Shown here: positions 2,810 through 18,642 of the stretch, one piece after another
How positions within the stretch are numbered: position 1 is the stretch's first letter
Layout: every line of letters begins with the position of its first letter
NCBI RefSeq assembly: GCF_000330505.1
Contig: NW_004440443.1
Location: forward strand, 36,287-56,184
Source of the DNA: Entamoeba invadens IP1
Taxonomy: Eukaryota > Evosea > Mastigamoebida > Endamoebidae
Direction: 5' to 3'
DNA: 19,898 bases
Translations under genes and position numbers: made by a program
The notes under the pieces: generated by a model
The model's input: only the letters and a program-made list of their open reading frames with translations
Databases searched by the model: none
Told to the model about the DNA's origin: nothing

Positions 2810-2944
2810 ATCAACAAACTTTTCCTTGTTAGTGTTGCTTCAAGAAACAGCACTAGCTCAGATGCGTGTTCCTGTGCACTTCGGACATTAGCGTCTGATG
2901 GTTTACCCTGGGAACAATTTTTGTATTGCCTTTTAATGGGCGCC
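2810..2944 (+). ncRNA. Candidate U1 spliceosomal snRNA with 5' end matched to GUUUGU donors
   Basis: U1 base-pairs with 5' splice sites to start spliceosome assembly in the nucleus. The 5' tail holds CAACAAAC (2812-2819), the exact complement of GUUUGUUG. Helix H can form between UUUCC (2821-2825) and GGGAA (2910-2914). Stem-loop I is a 10-bp stem (2828-2837 with 2848-2857) with the 10-nt loop CUUCAAGAAA, sharing UCANGAA with the known U1-70K site GAUCANGAAG. Stem-loop II (2859-2897) ends in a 10-nt loop UGUGCACUUC closed by CC/GG, matching 7 of 10 positions of the U1A site AUUGCACUCC. A tiny third stem lies at 2900-2907. The Sm site AAUUUUUG is at 2916-2923, then a short 3' hairpin (2927-2942). 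Ends are approximate. The order of parts is that of U1; stems III and IV are unusually short. Confidence 0.75.
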
Positions 2945-5331: not shown

Positions 5332-5926
5332 ATGTTAACTACTAACTCTTCAAAATATATTTCAATTGCTGTTTTGTTTTTAACTGGCATGGTTTCTCTT
5401 GTTTGTTATTATAATAAGTTTATTTTTTATTTGACTTAATGACATATAGATTGCATGGGTTGTGTGTTTGGTAATCATTACAAACATATTCTTTGGGTTT
5501 ATAAAAACAAAAGAATATGATAAGGTTACCATTTCTTTCTTTGGTAACATGACGTATCTGATATCTCTGACTTTTCCTCTTGTGTTCTTCTTTTTATCTT
5601 TCAAAAAATGGCGAGGTGATATATCAAAAGCAACAAGAATTTCTTCTATTTTGATCTTTTTCATATCAAACCTTGTAATGGGTTTAACTTATATTATTCC
5701 TTATTATTATGTGAATTATGGTATGTTATGTCCAAAATGTGAAGAAACTCCTCAATCCTTGTTAAGCTACCATCTCAGTCTGGGGTTTCTTGGATTTGGA
5801 ATTGTTTCTATGTTGTGTATGATATGTTATTCGATATTCGTTAGAGTTCAAAAATGTAATAAAAGAAAAGAAATTCCATTTGAGAAAATGACAGTCGAAG
5901 AAAACTTTTCAAATAAAACTAATTAA
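5332..5926 (+). CDS. Two-exon four-TM membrane protein, tetraspanin-like layout
   Basis: Exon 1 (5332-5400, 23 codons from ATG) joins exon 2 (5450-5926) through a 49-nt phase-0 intron with donor GTTTGT and acceptor TAG. The 181-residue product has TM segments near residues 11-38, 57-73, 87-111 and 131-153. Between TM3 and TM4 is a short loop with a CPKC motif, and the tail is charged (RVQKCNKRKE). Splicing completes TM1, which the continuous exon-2 frame lacks; that frame also has no early ATG. The layout, with a short inner TM2-TM3 loop and an outer Cys loop, resembles tetraspanins, but the outer loop is only about 20 residues and has no CCG motif. Function unknown; plasma or endomembrane location is likely. 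Confidence 0.7.
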
Positions 5927-7181: not shown

Positions 7182-7991
7182 ATGACTGCAACAGAATTTG
7201 ATGCTGACGAAAGTTTGTTTTCAAATAAAAAGTTCTCAAATCACAAAACGAAAGGGTGATTATATTATGTGTTTTAAAAAATTATAATTTTTAACAAAAC
7301 GAATTATCGAAAAACAATTTTTAAAAATATGGTATTAATTGTTATACGTGATTATACAAATTGTTTGTGTGATTTAAACACGTAAAAATATACAACTTCA
7401 TATATATACAACAAATCGTTTCACATTCGTTTTGCCAAATTAATTATAATATTGTGAACTATAAATAAACTATATTTCTCTTATATTTTTAACTCAATTT
7501 TGTTATATTTCTTCTTCCCATTTTAATAATTATTTGTTTAATTTGATTATAGTTAAATAAAGCTATATTCAATACATTTTAGTCCCTTTTTTGTGACTAT
7601 CGCGGTATAGTATTATTAGTTTACTTACTATTATGTTTAAGAATACACATGACTCGTAGAATTTACTCAAAAGGATACCCACGAAATGCTAGTGAAAGAC
7701 GAGAACGAGACGGCGAACACATTGAATGTAACGGCACAAGCGGGGTACACCTTTGCGACACTGGAAAACCAAAATGTGAAAAAGCAGACGGAGAACATTA
7801 AAGAGATTAAAGAGAACGCAGAGGCGGTGGACAAAAAAGTCCAAGAGGCCGATGACACTTCGAAACATATTCGACAAATGCGGTGTGAAAGTCGTAAGTG
7901 GACTATTATCGGAACTACTGTTGGTATTGCCATTGCTTTGATCATCATTATCATCATCATCATTGTGCTTGTTGTTGTGTTCAAGAAATGA
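7182..7991 (+). CDS. Tail-anchored SNARE, probable Q-SNARE; spliced start proposed
   Basis: The continuous frame 7686-7991 (101 residues) has one SNARE-type heptad coiled coil (about residues 3-65), then one TM segment (about 74-98) and a two-lysine end. The motif AGYTFATLENQ resembles the first SNARE motif of SNAP-25-type and Qb proteins, making Gln29 the likely zero-layer residue. SNAREs drive membrane fusion; this one would sit in a membrane by its C-terminus. Starting at 7686 barely covers the motif. A better model has exon 1 at 7182-7212 (MTATEFDADE), donor GTTTGT at 7213 and acceptor TAG at 7657-7659. Both sides are phase 1, giving about 120 residues. That intron would be 447 nt, long for this genome. 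The TM is encoded by an ATC/ATT run giving eight isoleucines. Confidence is good for SNARE-like, lower for exon 1. Confidence 0.65.
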
Positions 7992-9852: not shown

Positions 9853-10845
9853 ATGACTTCAAAATCAAAGAAAGTGTTTTTAGTGCTTGGAGCAGTTTAT
9901 TTTGTAATGTGTTTTGTTTGTTCTATTTTTTACTTTTAAATATCTTAATCAGTATAATTCAATTGAACACACATCAACAATTGTTTCTTAGACATTTTAA
10001 AACCTTCTTTGTGTATTATTAATCATTTTGGATTTAACGTTTTTAATGTATTTGAAATCTTGTTTCTTGTGTGTAATTTCAATGTTATATATATATATAA
10101 TTAATTTTACTATAATACTATAATATTATAATAATTAAATACTATAATAATTCTATAATAATTCTATAATAATTACTTAATACTGACACATAGATATTTT
10201 CAACAATGGGTGCTATATCCAAATTGTGGGCATTATATAGTATGAGTAATTATTATGGAGAAGACCGGACAGTTGTATTGGGATCTGCACTTTGTTATTT
10301 AATAGTGACAATCATGAGCGTCTTCTTTTCATTTTTGGTCTTGGGGTATTTAGTGTACTTCTATGTATCTCAAAGATCAGAAAGGATGTATATAGATATG
10401 GTATTAAAAGGTATGATGGTATTTCTTTTAATAGTATCTTTGTTCCTTGTGAATGTTCCGAAACAAAATCTGTTTCAAAAATATGTCATTGAAGATGTCA
10501 AACAATTTGAATATGAAGTTTGTGTTTCATTGTTCGATAAATTTGAAAATTTATAATAATGAATAGCACAAATGTTGTGTATTGCAGTCTAAAGATTTAA
10601 ATGAGATATCCCCCACATGTGGGTGTGTTTACAAATATGAAGAATACAACACTTTAAATTCAGACTGTGGGGTATGTCGGACACAAAGTGATTTAACCAC
10701 GGTAGTGTTGATAACTCCCAAATCTGTTTCTATTATAGAGGAAATACTGATGTTAGTTGGAGTAATGGGTATCTTTGGTCTTGTTATTTGGACTAATATA
10801 AATTCTGCAAAAAAGACAAAAATGGTTTTTGATGATCCATTTTAA
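9853..10845 (+). CDS. Three-exon tetraspanin-like protein
   Basis: Proposed exons are 9853-9915, 10194-10517 and 10567-10845, all phase 0, with donors GTTTGT (9916 and 10518) and acceptors TAG (10193 and 10566). The 221-residue product has TM1 (about 8-29) completed only by joining exons 1 and 2, TM2 (about 50-79), TM3 (about 90-109), a Cys-rich outer loop (about 110-184) and TM4 (about 185-206) before a short tail ending DDPF. The loop has a CC pair at 132-133, PTC at 145-147 and Cys at 149, 163 and 166, like the CC...PxxC plan of tetraspanins. Tetraspanins organise membrane microdomains. The 278-nt first intron is long and carries an 11-bp tandem repeat; without it the gene would start at ATG 10206 and lack TM1. 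CAG at 10587 is an alternative in-frame acceptor. Confidence 0.7.
10140..10172. repeat. 11-bp tandem repeat inside proposed tetraspanin intron 1
   Basis: One TACTATAATAA and two TTCTATAATAA copies in tandem, ending about 20 bases before the proposed acceptor. Expansion here may explain the long intron. Confidence 0.7.
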
Positions 10846-12531: not shown

Positions 12532-13458
12532 TTAAATTAATTGTAACACCCAAATTTGTTTCAGTTTACTCTTTTCTCCACTAATGAAACACCCACATGG
12601 TGCAGTGTATGACTTTTGAGTAAAAGACATTTCCATTTCACCATCCACAATCATCGCCCCAATATCATAACCAATGCCAAATGCAAAACACGTTGGGTGG
12701 CGGTCTGAATTAACGATAAAGGCTCTTTTGAAACATTCTTCTGTTTGTCCAATTGCAAATTTTTGCACCGAGTACGCTCCATTTCTTTTAATTGTGAAAA
12801 TAGAAGCATTTTTGTCTGATATGAAGTCATTCACTTTCGTCACCTTTTCATAGAACACACCACCAAAGACATTGGAATAATTGTCTTCCACTACAACACA
12901 CAAATTTTGTTTTCCAACAACACTGTTGCAGAAGAAATTTTTGATCTTATCTTTGTTCTTAGCTGTGTCATAGAAAATGACTTGTTTCACATTTTTAGAT
13001 GTCAAACTTTCAATTTGTGAAGTTAAGAAACAGTTGCCACCATTTGGAGTGACTTGAAGAGATGAAGCTTCTTGTGCCTTTTGAGACGTCTGTATTTTCA
13101 TTTGTTTGATTTTCTCAATTTTGTCTTGACACTTTTGCGTCTCAAGTTTCTCAAGAATGTCAAGCACTCGATTGTGCTCTTCATAAAGTTGTAATATTTT
13201 GGCATTTTCATTTTCAAGGGTTTTTATAAATAATTTAAAAATAGAAATAGAGTCTTCAATTGTCTTTTGGTGTTTTTTCGATCGTTTTACTTTCTCGTCT
13301 AAAATGTCATATTGTGTTTCTGCTTTCTCATATCTTTTATCAAAACTTAATTGGGTGTTATCTTCAAATTTGGTAAATTCACTTTGTGACGCATTTTTGA
13401 TGTTCTCTGTAAGTAACTTCTCACATAGGGTTTGTGCCTCTTTGGCGATGATTTCCAT
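12532..13458 (-). CDS. Coiled-coil plus TLDc-like domain protein, paralogue 1
   Basis: The 308-residue intronless product has a helical, charged N-terminal half with predicted coiled coil (about 35-130) and a C-terminal TLDc-like domain (about 158-308). Domain landmarks are IFYD at 161-164, FFC at 175-177, the ED-N...NVFGG block at 191-200, YEKVTK at 203-208, the NASIFTIKRNG strand at 217-227, CFAFG at 257-261 and the closing WVLQLI. TLDc domains elsewhere occur in TBC1D24 and OXR1-type proteins linked to V-ATPase and oxidative stress; in Entamoeba, coiled-coil/TLDc proteins form a family of unknown role. The TLDc call is by motif pattern. The gene is divergent from a paralogue at 13821-14690 with the same layout, and the two share a 362-bp upstream region. 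Confidence 0.75.
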   Translation of the reverse strand: MEIIAKEAQTLCEKLLTENIKNASQSEFTKFEDNTQLSFDKRYEKAETQYDILDEKVKRSKKHQKTIEDSISIFKLFIKTLENENAKILQLYEEHNRVLDILEKLETQKCQDKIEKIKQMKIQTSQKAQEASSLQVTPNGGNCFLTSQIESLTSKNVKQVIFYDTAKNKDKIKNFFCNSVVGKQNLCVVVEDNYSNVFGGVFYEKVTKVNDFISDKNASIFTIKRNGAYSVQKFAIGQTEECFKRAFIVNSDRHPTCFAFGIGYDIGAMIVDGEMEMSFTQKSYTAPCGCFISGEKSKLKQIWVLQLI

Positions 13459-13820: not shown

Positions 13821-14690
13821 ATGGAGCAGTCTATTATTGACTTGTTCTTTACTAAATTTGTCCAACTCAATCATTACGCTTCCGAATTTAATGTGATGTG
13901 TGGCACACCAGATTTCCTTCAAGAAGTTAATGGGTCGACTTTATTTCGTCTCGAATACCTTTCAAAGACATATCAACAATTACAAACAGAAGTTGAAATT
14001 TCAAAAAAATACGAACAAAGTATAGCGGAATTTAAAAACTTGACAACAACCCTCTTCCAAACCCTAGAAGAAGAAAATAACAAAATCCAAAGGGTTTATG
14101 CCAAGTACAATAAATTGCTCGACAACACCATTGAATTGTTAAACGAAAATAAAGAAACACGACTGAAGGAAATCAAACAGCAAAGAATTGTCCCAGAAAC
14201 TTTTTCAATGATGAATTCGCTTGAGAGGAAAGAAATAGAAAAGATGAGTGGCCTTCAAGTCTCTGATATCATCTTTGAGGGGAAGGCATCTGAGTATTCC
14301 AATATTAAAGAATTCTTCTGTAAAGGAATCATGCAGAAAGAAAAGTTGTGCATTTTAATAGAAGACAATTTAAATAATAAATTTGGAGGTGTCGTCTATG
14401 AAAAGATTACAAAACAACAAAAATGCATTTGTGACCACAAAGCATTCATCTTTGTTCTTGAGAATAATGGAGCGTTCGATCCGATGAAAGTCATGTTAAA
14501 AACAGCAAAAGGGACTGAGGCGTTTGCTACTAACCAGATCGAAAGTAAAAAGTTGTTTACATTTGGGTCAGACATGTCTTTGACTTACAATGAATTGATA
14601 ATAAAATTTAAATGTATCAGTTTTAAGAAACTACTATTTAAATTTAGTACCACAGCAGTTAAGAGTATTGCTGTTATACAACTGAAGTGA
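13821..14690 (+). CDS. Coiled-coil plus TLDc-like domain protein, paralogue 2
   Basis: The 289-residue product matches the layout of the neighbouring minus-strand gene: coiled coil (about 45-125) then TLDc-like domain (about 148-289). Shared blocks include TLEEENNKIQ versus TLENENAKIL in the coiled coil, FFC at 165-167, ED-N...NKFGG at 181-190, YEKITK at 193-198, and the closing IAVIQLK. The CFAFG block of the other copy appears here as LFTFGS (245-250), and the region after it is shorter and more divergent (FKKLLFKFSTT), lacking the Cys-rich PCGCF stretch. Paralogue 2 may have changed ligand or be under weaker constraint. No intron is needed. Head-to-head placement suggests an inverted tandem duplication. 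Confidence 0.75.
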   Translation: MEQSIIDLFFTKFVQLNHYASEFNVMCGTPDFLQEVNGSTLFRLEYLSKTYQQLQTEVEISKKYEQSIAEFKNLTTTLFQTLEEENNKIQRVYAKYNKLLDNTIELLNENKETRLKEIKQQRIVPETFSMMNSLERKEIEKMSGLQVSDIIFEGKASEYSNIKEFFCKGIMQKEKLCILIEDNLNNKFGGVVYEKITKQQKCICDHKAFIFVLENNGAFDPMKVMLKTAKGTEAFATNQIESKKLFTFGSDMSLTYNELIIKFKCISFKKLLFKFSTTAVKSIAVIQLK

Positions 14691-16270: not shown

Positions 16271-17196
16271 ATAAATCTGCCAAAACTGCATTTTGATTAT
16301 TTAATGAGGAAAAAAGAAAGAAAAACGGTGAAAAACACATTGATAACAACTTTGTACGTCTTCTTTGGTTGTAGTTGCTCAAGCAAAACTCAACGGAAAA
16401 AACATTTTGAAACAGTTTCAACATGACATCCTTTAAATTTGCGTGTATTGCTAAGTTCAATAAAAACGATCGAAAAGAAATTAAAGGCTTTGGATGGCAC
16501 TTTATGTGCATTTTATAAGTAATTTTATGGTTTTATTTCATTTTTTGTTCAAGTATATACTATAATTATAGTTATTAATAATTAAAAAGAGAATTGGTTT
16601 TGTTACTGTTTGATAAGATTATAAACAAAGCAACTCTTTAAAAACTCATAAAACAAAACGTTTTTAGTAATCTAAAATATAATTGATAATTATCAAAATA
16701 TTATTAAAATATTATTAAGTATTTTTCTTAAAATATTAAAAACGAACTAACTTGAACATACATTAGATTAGAGTTAATAACTTTCTTTTTAGAATAAAGA
16801 ATGGTAAACAAAATAAATAAAATACAAACGTCTAACCAACAACGTAATGAATATAAGTTAAAAACAACAATATAAGACAATGATAACACCAATAAACATA
16901 ATAACACATTCATGTCCAAACCAATTGATACATCAAAAATTCCCCATCAAAAGTATAAATATAAATTTCGAGACGAAAAGATCGAAAGCCTTTCCAAAAG
17001 CATGAAAGGTCCCGTCGTACCTCGCTCGACTCGCATTATTGAGTATTTAAAAAAAATTTCCCTCTATTATTGATATTTTTAAACAACTTGACGAACATTT
17101 TAATTTCGTTTTGTTTATTTTCGAGATCAAGTAAGATATTGTTTGGAAAGATTACCCGAAAATACTTCAATTATTTTAAAGTCCAAAAATCTTTCA
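16271..17196. other. Spacer upstream of the transposase
   Basis: AT-rich, with a short GC-richer patch at 16980-17035 that includes a CCTTTC (16989-16994)/GAAAGG (17004-17009) hairpin. The transposase frame stays open back to 17104 without an ATG. No left terminal inverted repeat of the pogo type (TACAG...) is visible here. Confidence 0.4.
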
Positions 17197-18642
17197 ATGA
17201 CAAATGCTTTAGAAATTTTTTTTGGAACTTCTAAAAATAGAAGTGTGAGGTCTCAAATTAACAAAATTAAAAAAGAAGAAATTTTGGATAAAAAACCCGA
17301 AAAGGGAAGAAAAAGGATCCTCAATGATGAAGAAATTGAGGAAATTCAAAAAGCTATTAAAAATAGAAAAACAAAAAAAGCGAGTCAAGAAGAAACAAGT
17401 TGTTTTATTTATGAAAATTTCGGCAAAAAAATAGGAACCAAACAACTCCACAAAATAATTACACATGTTTTCGAAATTGAGCCTAAAATTGCACCAGTTA
17501 TGGAACTAAAACGCGCAGAAGTAACACAAGAGTCTATTTTGCAATATTATACGGAATTAAAGAAAAAAATAGACGGATGCCGTTTTGAGCTCATTTACAA
17601 CCTTGACGAGGTCGGTTTTGACCAATGGGTTGATGCTCGTTCCAAATTGGTTTACGTGGAAGTTGGTACGGGTGAATATGTTTTTAATGAAGTTGAACGA
17701 GACAATTCAAGAACAAGTATGCTATGTTGTGGTTGTCTTGATGGCACAAAAATGATTCCGCTAGTTGTAACAAAAAGGCTATCTATAGCCGATGAAACAA
17801 TTATTTCACTAAAAAGTCGGGCTTTAATACGACATCAAAAATCGGGAGTTTTAAATACAAAACTTTATACTTTGTGGTTGAAAAAAGTTTTTTTCCCGAA
17901 TATTAGGGTAAAACGCGACTACATGGGTGTAAGACAAGACACAAAAGCTTACCTCATTATTGATGGATTTTCGGGTCACTTTTCCGAAGAAATAGAAAAA
18001 TTATTTATGGAAAATTGTGTCGAAATAATCAGAGAAGTTCCCCATAGTTCCCATTTATGTCAGCCGATGGACTTGGGAATTTTCGGGATTCAAAAAACCT
18101 TTTTGGGAGACAAAACCAATTTTCTTCAACACAAATTTAACTTAATGGAAAAGGAAGGTAAAAAATATGAAAAAACTGGGAAAATTTTACAAATGGATTC
18201 TCAAGAGTTTAAAAATGTTTTAAAAAAATATTCACACATGTCCGAAGAAGAAAAAATAAAAGAGCTTGTTTACTCTTGGGAATGTGTCGCAAATGGTGAA
18301 AACATAATTAGTGCATTCAAACAAGCTGGTATTACTTTTTCACCACACATTCCTAATGATGCCGAATTGTTATTAATAGAAAGAAGTGATCCCGATTTCA
18401 ACCCATCAGATTTTGTAATAGGTGTAGCCAGGGTTGAAATAAATAGTGCCAGGGAAGTGTGCAAATTTTTGGGGAAAATGTCCGAACCAAAAACAACAAC
18501 ATCTACACGTGTTGCTCTTGAGAACACATTGGATAGAAAAAATAGATTGGAATGTGAAAAAATAGTGAAGGAAAAAAACGAGATGAAAGGTATCAATAAG
18601 AAGCTATTTATTGAAAAAAAGCCTCGATTAGAAAAACATTAA
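17197..18642 (+). CDS. Pogo/Tigger/Fot1-like DDE transposase
   Basis: From the first in-frame ATG (17197) the product is 481 residues. It would cut and paste its own element in the nucleus, inserting at TA. Three catalytic aspartates fit the DDE_1 (pogo) family: Asp137 in NLDEVGF, Asp256 in LIIDGFSGH and Asp292 in HLCQPMDLGIF. The last two are separated by 35 residues, the Fot1-like DD35D spacing. After them comes the family's W...NIISAFKQAGI segment. Upstream is a lysine-rich helical part (about 25-95), presumably the DNA-binding region, though a clear CENP-B domain is not obvious. The frame is open 31 codons further upstream without ATG, so an upstream exon or truncation is possible. The coding frame is intact, suggesting recent activity. 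A terminal-repeat-like sequence lies downstream at 18919-18981, but no left match was found. Confidence 0.9.
   Translation: MTNALEIFFGTSKNRSVRSQINKIKKEEILDKKPEKGRKRILNDEEIEEIQKAIKNRKTKKASQEETSCFIYENFGKKIGTKQLHKIITHVFEIEPKIAPVMELKRAEVTQESILQYYTELKKKIDGCRFELIYNLDEVGFDQWVDARSKLVYVEVGTGEYVFNEVERDNSRTSMLCCGCLDGTKMIPLVVTKRLSIADETIISLKSRALIRHQKSGVLNTKLYTLWLKKVFFPNIRVKRDYMGVRQDTKAYLIIDGFSGHFSEEIEKLFMENCVEIIREVPHSSHLCQPMDLGIFGIQKTFLGDKTNFLQHKFNLMEKEGKKYEKTGKILQMDSQEFKNVLKKYSHMSEEEKIKELVYSWECVANGENIISAFKQAGITFSPHIPNDAELLLIERSDPDFNPSDFVIGVARVEINSAREVCKFLGKMSEPKTTTSTRVALENTLDRKNRLECEKIVKEKNEMKGINKKLFIEKKPRLEKH

Follow-up and report, generated by a model that had tools for sequence, protein, structure and literature searches.

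Entamoeba splicing is portrayed without a U1 RNA in the available passages of the literature from 2018 to June 2026. Passages of PMC13292270 (2026) and PMC8876499 describe E. histolytica as being without the U1 snRNA, as possibly without it, or as not known to have it. The same statements are made in passages of PMC6085484, PMC6018208 and PMC6046404, which name Davila Lopez et al. 2008 on the missing U1. No report of a U1 snRNA in Entamoeba was found in the accessible text of open-licence PubMed Central papers. A first-pass annotation of the DNA studied here had noted that U1 is hard to find in Entamoeba, and these passages agree with it, as they call the U1 RNA absent or unidentified. Two proteins of the U1 particle, U1A and U1-70K, are included in the listed proteins of E. 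histolytica according to a passage of PMC6018208. A comparable case, likened by description, is that of the divergent snRNAs of Giardia, which were also found via a signal common to RNA genes; this signal is a 12-nt 3′ processing motif (PMC3510501).

In a 19,898-nt stretch of E. invadens DNA (the window), a U1 snRNA of about 135 nt is predicted at positions 2810-2944 on the plus strand, based on a match to the Rfam U1 model and on a second copy. We are highly confident, judging from its sequence, that it represents a functional U1 snRNA gene of Entamoeba with two dispersed copies, and it would very probably be the missing U1 of Entamoeba. The locus shares with the Rfam U1 family (RF00003) the order of 5′ tail, helix H, stem-loop 1, stem-loop 2, Sm site and 3′ hairpin, and also the UCANGAA and UGCACU loops. 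Between stem-loop 2 and the Sm word a remnant of stem-loop 3 is weakly predicted. The differences from the family are the tail, which is ACAAAC here and ACUUAC in the model, the stem-loop 3 of only 2 bp, and the length of about 135 nt compared with the 166 positions of the model. The size of stem-loop 3 of U1 varies among species.

All parts of the predicted RNA lie on the plus strand. Its 5′ tail is AUCAACAAAC, with a predicted start at about 2810. The CAACAAAC that the first-pass annotation had placed at 2812-2819 is located there; the 5′ end is better moved to about 2810, because this start gives the same distance to the TATA-like element as in the U2 genes. The assignment of the end comes from this common spacing, and an argument from introns is not used. 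The donor-pairing element ACAAAC occupies 2814-2819, which corresponds to RNA positions 5-10. Helix H had also been proposed earlier and is predicted here with a corrected pairing. Its 5′ strand at 2822-2826 and its 3′ strand at 2910-2914 are predicted to pair as UUCCU with GGGAA in the minimum-energy folds of both copies, calculated with the tail and the Sm site held open. Stem-loop 1 (2828-2857) consists of a 10-bp stem and an exact 10-nt loop in both copies, as first described. Its loop CUUCAAGAAA at 2838-2847 contains the U1-70K-type core UCANGAA and is aligned to GAUCAaGAAG of Rfam U1 in the covariance alignment.

Stem-loop 2 (2858-2898) carries the U1A-type loop UGUGCACUUC at 2873-2882. 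Its UGCACU is aligned to the Rfam U1 consensus loop, and this core is present in both copies. The second 10-nt loop closed by CC/GG, as proposed in the first-pass annotation, is possible in the window copy, with −33.5 kcal/mol for the whole structure. The closing pairs differ in the copy on contig C55. A pairing compatible with both copies consists of six uninterrupted pairs around an 11-nt loop, and the whole structure then has −35.9 kcal/mol. A vestigial stem-loop 3 of 2 bp is weakly predicted at 2900-2908 in the constrained fold of both copies. The Sm-site word AACAATTTTTG is found at 2913-2923, and the Sm site AAUUUUUG noted earlier lies at 2916-2923. It sits between helix H and stem-loop 4, a short 3′ hairpin of 5 bp at 2927-2942 in the constrained folds. 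In the minimum-energy fold with the tail and the Sm site held single-stranded, both copies form the U1 junction at −35.9 kcal/mol each; to be noted, the unpaired 5′ tail is a constraint imposed on this fold, alongside the open Sm site. In the unconstrained fold of the window copy, stem-loop 2 is rearranged and the energy is −38.2 kcal/mol.

When the region 2806-2952 is scanned alone, U1 ranks first among 4227 Rfam families with 17.7 bits and an E-value of 0.0076, which is valid for this 147-base stretch only, as the stretch was chosen because of the finding; for the whole window the U1 E-value would be about 135 times larger, near 1. The alignment covers 2812-2949 and model positions 1-166 of 166. 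The families after U1 in the window copy are SmY, a viral frameshift element and U4, with E-values of 4.2 to 7.5. For the second copy U1 is again first by E-value in a scan limited to the copy (14.4 bits, E 0.069), and an unrelated microRNA model ties at 14.4 bits with an E-value of 2.1. Both copies (17.7 and 14.4 bits) remain far below the U1 gathering cut-off of 69.5 bits, which is a detection threshold and not a biological feature. The whole window gave no match at Rfam gathering cut-offs, and U1 was not among the matches listed in a permissive scan of 801 bases. The RF00003 search of the genome, with 41 of 356 candidates scored, gave no match.

The scan also bears on the possibility that the locus encodes some other RNA of the Sm class, such as an SmY-like or other nuclear RNA, which is U1-like without selecting donors. 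SmY with 10.0 bits and U4 with 8.4 bits do match the Sm region and the 3′ end of the window copy, both weakly. However, U1 is the best family by E-value and is aligned over the whole RNA, and the locus has the two loop cores and the donor-complementary tail typical of U1. We consider a different Sm-class RNA highly improbable. SmY itself (RF01844) was rejected as an identity, because the scores of 10.0 and 11.9 bits fall short of its cut-off of 39 and the match is confined to the 3′ half.

Could the arrangement be a chance assembly of AT-rich hairpins? The fold has a z-score of merely −2.25 against shuffled sequences, and 4 of 200 shuffles fold at least as well. Furthermore, the loop cores TCANGAA and then TGCACTNC 15-45 bases on are found at 17 places genome-wide and at 18 places for the reversed control, so the pair of loop motifs alone is uninformative. 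The full architecture, with a 10-bp stem and exact 10-nt loop, AATTTTTG 33 bases downstream and ACAAAC upstream, is however found at 2 of these 17 places, which are both U1 copies, and at none of the other 15. At those 15 places the first stem has at most 4 bp, and the preceding 50 bases contain neither ACAAAC nor ACTTAC; L015, one of the 15, shows ATTTTTTG at +33, yet neither stem. The whole architecture exceeds chance expectation. The dispersed, constrained second copy and the signals common to U2 also argue against chance. With the tests of architecture, U2 pattern and copy differences, the chance reading is already very unlikely, and we rate its probability as next to nil.

The second, dispersed copy of the proposed U1 gene was identified by a genome search (35.0 Mb, 233 contigs) on contig C55 (L002:1541-1675). 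The two RNAs agree at 129 of 135 positions. An upstream block common to both copies, corresponding to the promoter region, extends over 2653-2809 on the plus strand with 143 of 157 bases identical. The 13 bases past the 3′ end (2945-2957, TTAACATTTTATA) are identical at 13 of 13 positions and could be a 3′ processing box, which is suggestive only. The outer flanks are unrelated; in ungapped comparison 83 of 200 bases match on the upstream side and 65 of 200 on the downstream side. The promoter, the RNA and a short tail were thus retained as a unit after duplication. Among the six differences between the copies, five are located in predicted pairs and are all pair-preserving, and one is in the U1A-type loop; the predicted pairs are formed in both copies without exception (36 of 36). 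The chance that six random changes all fit the fold is 0.042, a value that is supporting and not decisive because the tested fold is the one common to both copies. Stem-loop 2 holds five of the six differences, four of them pair-preserving; three are at its apex (RNA positions 72, 75 and 77), and the C55 copy has a U to G change in the U1A-type loop. The U1A-type hairpin thus differs between the copies, and they may represent separate U1 isoforms.

Comparison with the U2 genes of the same genome provides further evidence. Three U2 genes (L003-L005) were found with RF00004. They have GTATATAA, AACAATTTTTG and a downstream TTAAC in common with the locus, yet encode a distinct RNA, with 118-120 bits for the U2 model. 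The TATA-like GTATATAA at 2781-2788 on the plus strand begins 29 bases before the predicted 5′ end; this position, −29, is the same for the second U1 copy, and the element starts at −28 in all three U2 genes found. The Sm word AACAATTTTTG is identical in these three genes and both U1 copies, and it occurs four times on both strands of 192,461 bases (genome sample and window). TTAAC is present shortly past the RNA end in the three U2 genes found and in both U1 copies. In the whole genome, GTATATAA followed by AACAATTTTTG 98-128 bases on is found at five places, namely all three U2 genes and both copies of U1, and the reversed control gives 2 places in 35 Mb; these words occur in U2 genes, their presence in U1 was known before the search, and the spacing range was made wide enough to include the gap of 124 bases in U1, the U2 gap being 111. 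A distal upstream element TGAG...AACTATA, similar in U1 and U2, was considered and dropped, as 13 of 19 was observed and all 60 shuffles reached at least 13. As a pattern drawn from these genes, it matches two U1 genes, two U2 genes and a fifth place, and three places in the reversed control. The fifth place has no spliceosomal RNA match in 451 bases, and a snoRNA match of 15.5 bits there is weak.

As for the other spliceosomal RNAs, one U6 gene is over the cut-off (L006 on contig C42, 74 bits). Given the T-run after this gene, it is probably transcribed by pol III, unlike U1 and U2 here. The genome search with the Rfam models of U4 and U5 gave no matches, and neither did a U5 loop pattern allowing up to 3 mismatches. 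U4 and U5 were cloned from E. histolytica (passage of PMC13292270), and those of this genome are probably divergent too.

Transcript-confirmed introns of E. invadens have the extended 5′ consensus GTTTGT, which is also found in E. histolytica (passage of PMC4053983). The ACAAAC element forms six of six pairs with GUUUGU, while the canonical ACUUAC forms four of six (8 of the 9 donors listed); with a GTTTGC donor the numbers are five and three. When eight positions are counted, the candidate tail pairs better than the canonical one with 8 of 9 donors, and the two tie, with 6 and 6, at position 10518 of the window. The first-pass annotation had named four GTTTGT introns in the window. Two of these are plausible GTTTGT...TAG introns of 49 nt on the plus strand: removal of 5401-5449 links open frames 29 and 158 codons long, and removal of 10518-10566 links frames of 108 and 92 codons. 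The one at 9916 is ambiguous, and the one at 7213 is not intron-like.

More donors were sampled in 200 kb of contig C72, of which 27,437 bases are N; G+C is about 33% of called bases and 0.281 of all 200,000 letters including the N, and E. invadens is described as 70% A+T in a passage of PMC4053983. Eighteen GTTTGT joins were found in this sample, and nine of them were tested together with one GTTTGC join. A Pfam domain spans the junction in 7 of the 10 joins tested, and 3 of 10 gave no match. The domains across GTTTGT junctions are Ras, Rab, ATPase, hydrolase (two transport-ATPase segments), Rep_fac_C and DUF676, and a further Rab domain spans the GTTTGC junction. The E1-E2_ATPase junction match has 27.1 bits, just below the cut-off of 28.1. 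Since nine of the ten joins were preselected for GTTTGT, they indicate that such introns are real and do not give their frequency. De novo intron statistics yielded 12 candidate groups, 3 of them with a GTTTGT option. The GTTTGT hexamer ranked 311 of 2210, 58 of 2209, 32 of 2207 and 24 of 2204. Among the donor options of candidate groups GTTTGT was the most frequent, occurring in 3 of 15 and in 4 of 16 groups. As these statistics are inconclusive or weakly favourable, the intron evidence is carried by the domain-spanning junctions. The earlier proposal of a GTTTGT-matched U1 tail agrees with them, the tail being complementary to the donors of the domain-supported introns. A scan of viral contigs for the tail sequence gave no matches.

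The donor match is also relevant for the view that Entamoeba splices without U1 RNA, in which U1C, U1-70K and U1A would read the donor as proteins and the locus would be a U1 relic. Splicing without U1 is stated or assumed in the literature passages, and the failure to reach the Rfam cut-off would suit a relic. Nevertheless, both copies keep all predicted pairs, both loop cores, the Sm site, the TATA element and the donor-matched tail. A relic is not expected to track donors, so this tail counts against it. We regard a U1 relic as very improbable.

A functional U1 particle also includes the U1C protein. A U1C gene encoding 96 amino acids was found (L016:1333-1620, minus strand), with a zf-U1 score of 42.2 bits in the family search and 40.9 bits in a second scan, and U1 snRNP C accounts for each of its five best matches in the PDB. 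In the zf-U1 family search another locus, L017, scored marginally with 22.5 bits (cut-off 22), and 2 of 14 prokaryote controls were also matched, so the identity of U1C leans on the PDB comparison. The Pfam model of the U1-70K N-terminus gave no matches and no candidates in an exon-by-exon genome search, which is poorly suited to intron-split genes; it matched none of its controls, so absence of the gene cannot be concluded.

The U1 identity given in the first-pass annotation is hence supported by the covariance ranking, the U2-like gene signals, the fold-respecting copy differences, the donor-matched tail and the U1C gene. The architecture, the copies, the common gene signals, the complementarity and the presence of the U1C gene are directly readable in the DNA, and the following scheme is what they suggest. 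Transcription of the RNA would start from a TATA-type promoter resembling the one of the U2 genes of this genome. Sm proteins would bind AACAAUUUUUG, U1-70K stem-loop 1 and U1A stem-loop 2. Together with U1C, the U1 particle would recognise introns by pairing of its ACAAAC tail with GUUUGU, and A4 of the RNA could extend the pairing to seven with GUUUGUU. The two middle bases changed from ACUUAC to ACAAAC would mirror the change of donors from GUAAGU to GUUUGU and would meet donor positions +3 and +4.

We think it likely that Entamoeba never lost U1, and that U1 was missed after its tail changed from ACUUAC to ACAAAC with the donors and its stem-loop 3 shrank. The two substitutions in the donor-pairing element, which accompany a genome-wide donor change, and the shrunken stem-loop 3 would be the reason why U1 escaped detection. 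If this is true, the model of donor recognition by proteins only would be wrong for Entamoeba, and the retention of U1A, U1-70K and U1C would be explained. It would also show clearly that the U1 of a genome and its donors can change in concert, here at two neighbouring positions. Now that a specific 135-nt sequence and its predicted ends are given, the claim of U1-less splicing can be tested.

Several other features were observed. For a partial NifS-type cysteine desulfurase of 237 aa the best NCBIfam model is nifS_epsilon, with 358 bits, below the full-length cut-off; in E. histolytica and Mastigamoeba balamuthi, ISC is described to have been replaced by NIF (passages of PMC6006210). Together with the base composition and the GTTTGT introns, this protein supports an Entamoeba origin of the genome. 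Two TLDc-like neighbours lie on opposite strands of the window, at 12532-13458 (minus) and 13821-14690 (plus), the second just under the Pfam cut-off; a protein search with a TLDc protein of the window matched that protein alone. At 7686-7991 on the plus strand a small protein resembling synaptobrevin is encoded, which has a hydrophobic stretch at its C-terminus and is also under the Pfam cut-off. The first 500 bases of the window have a G+C content of 42%, compared with 15-36% in the remaining 500-base stretches. Finally, an open frame of 499 aa at 17143-18642 on the plus strand contains a DDE_1 transposase-type domain with 50.7 bits.
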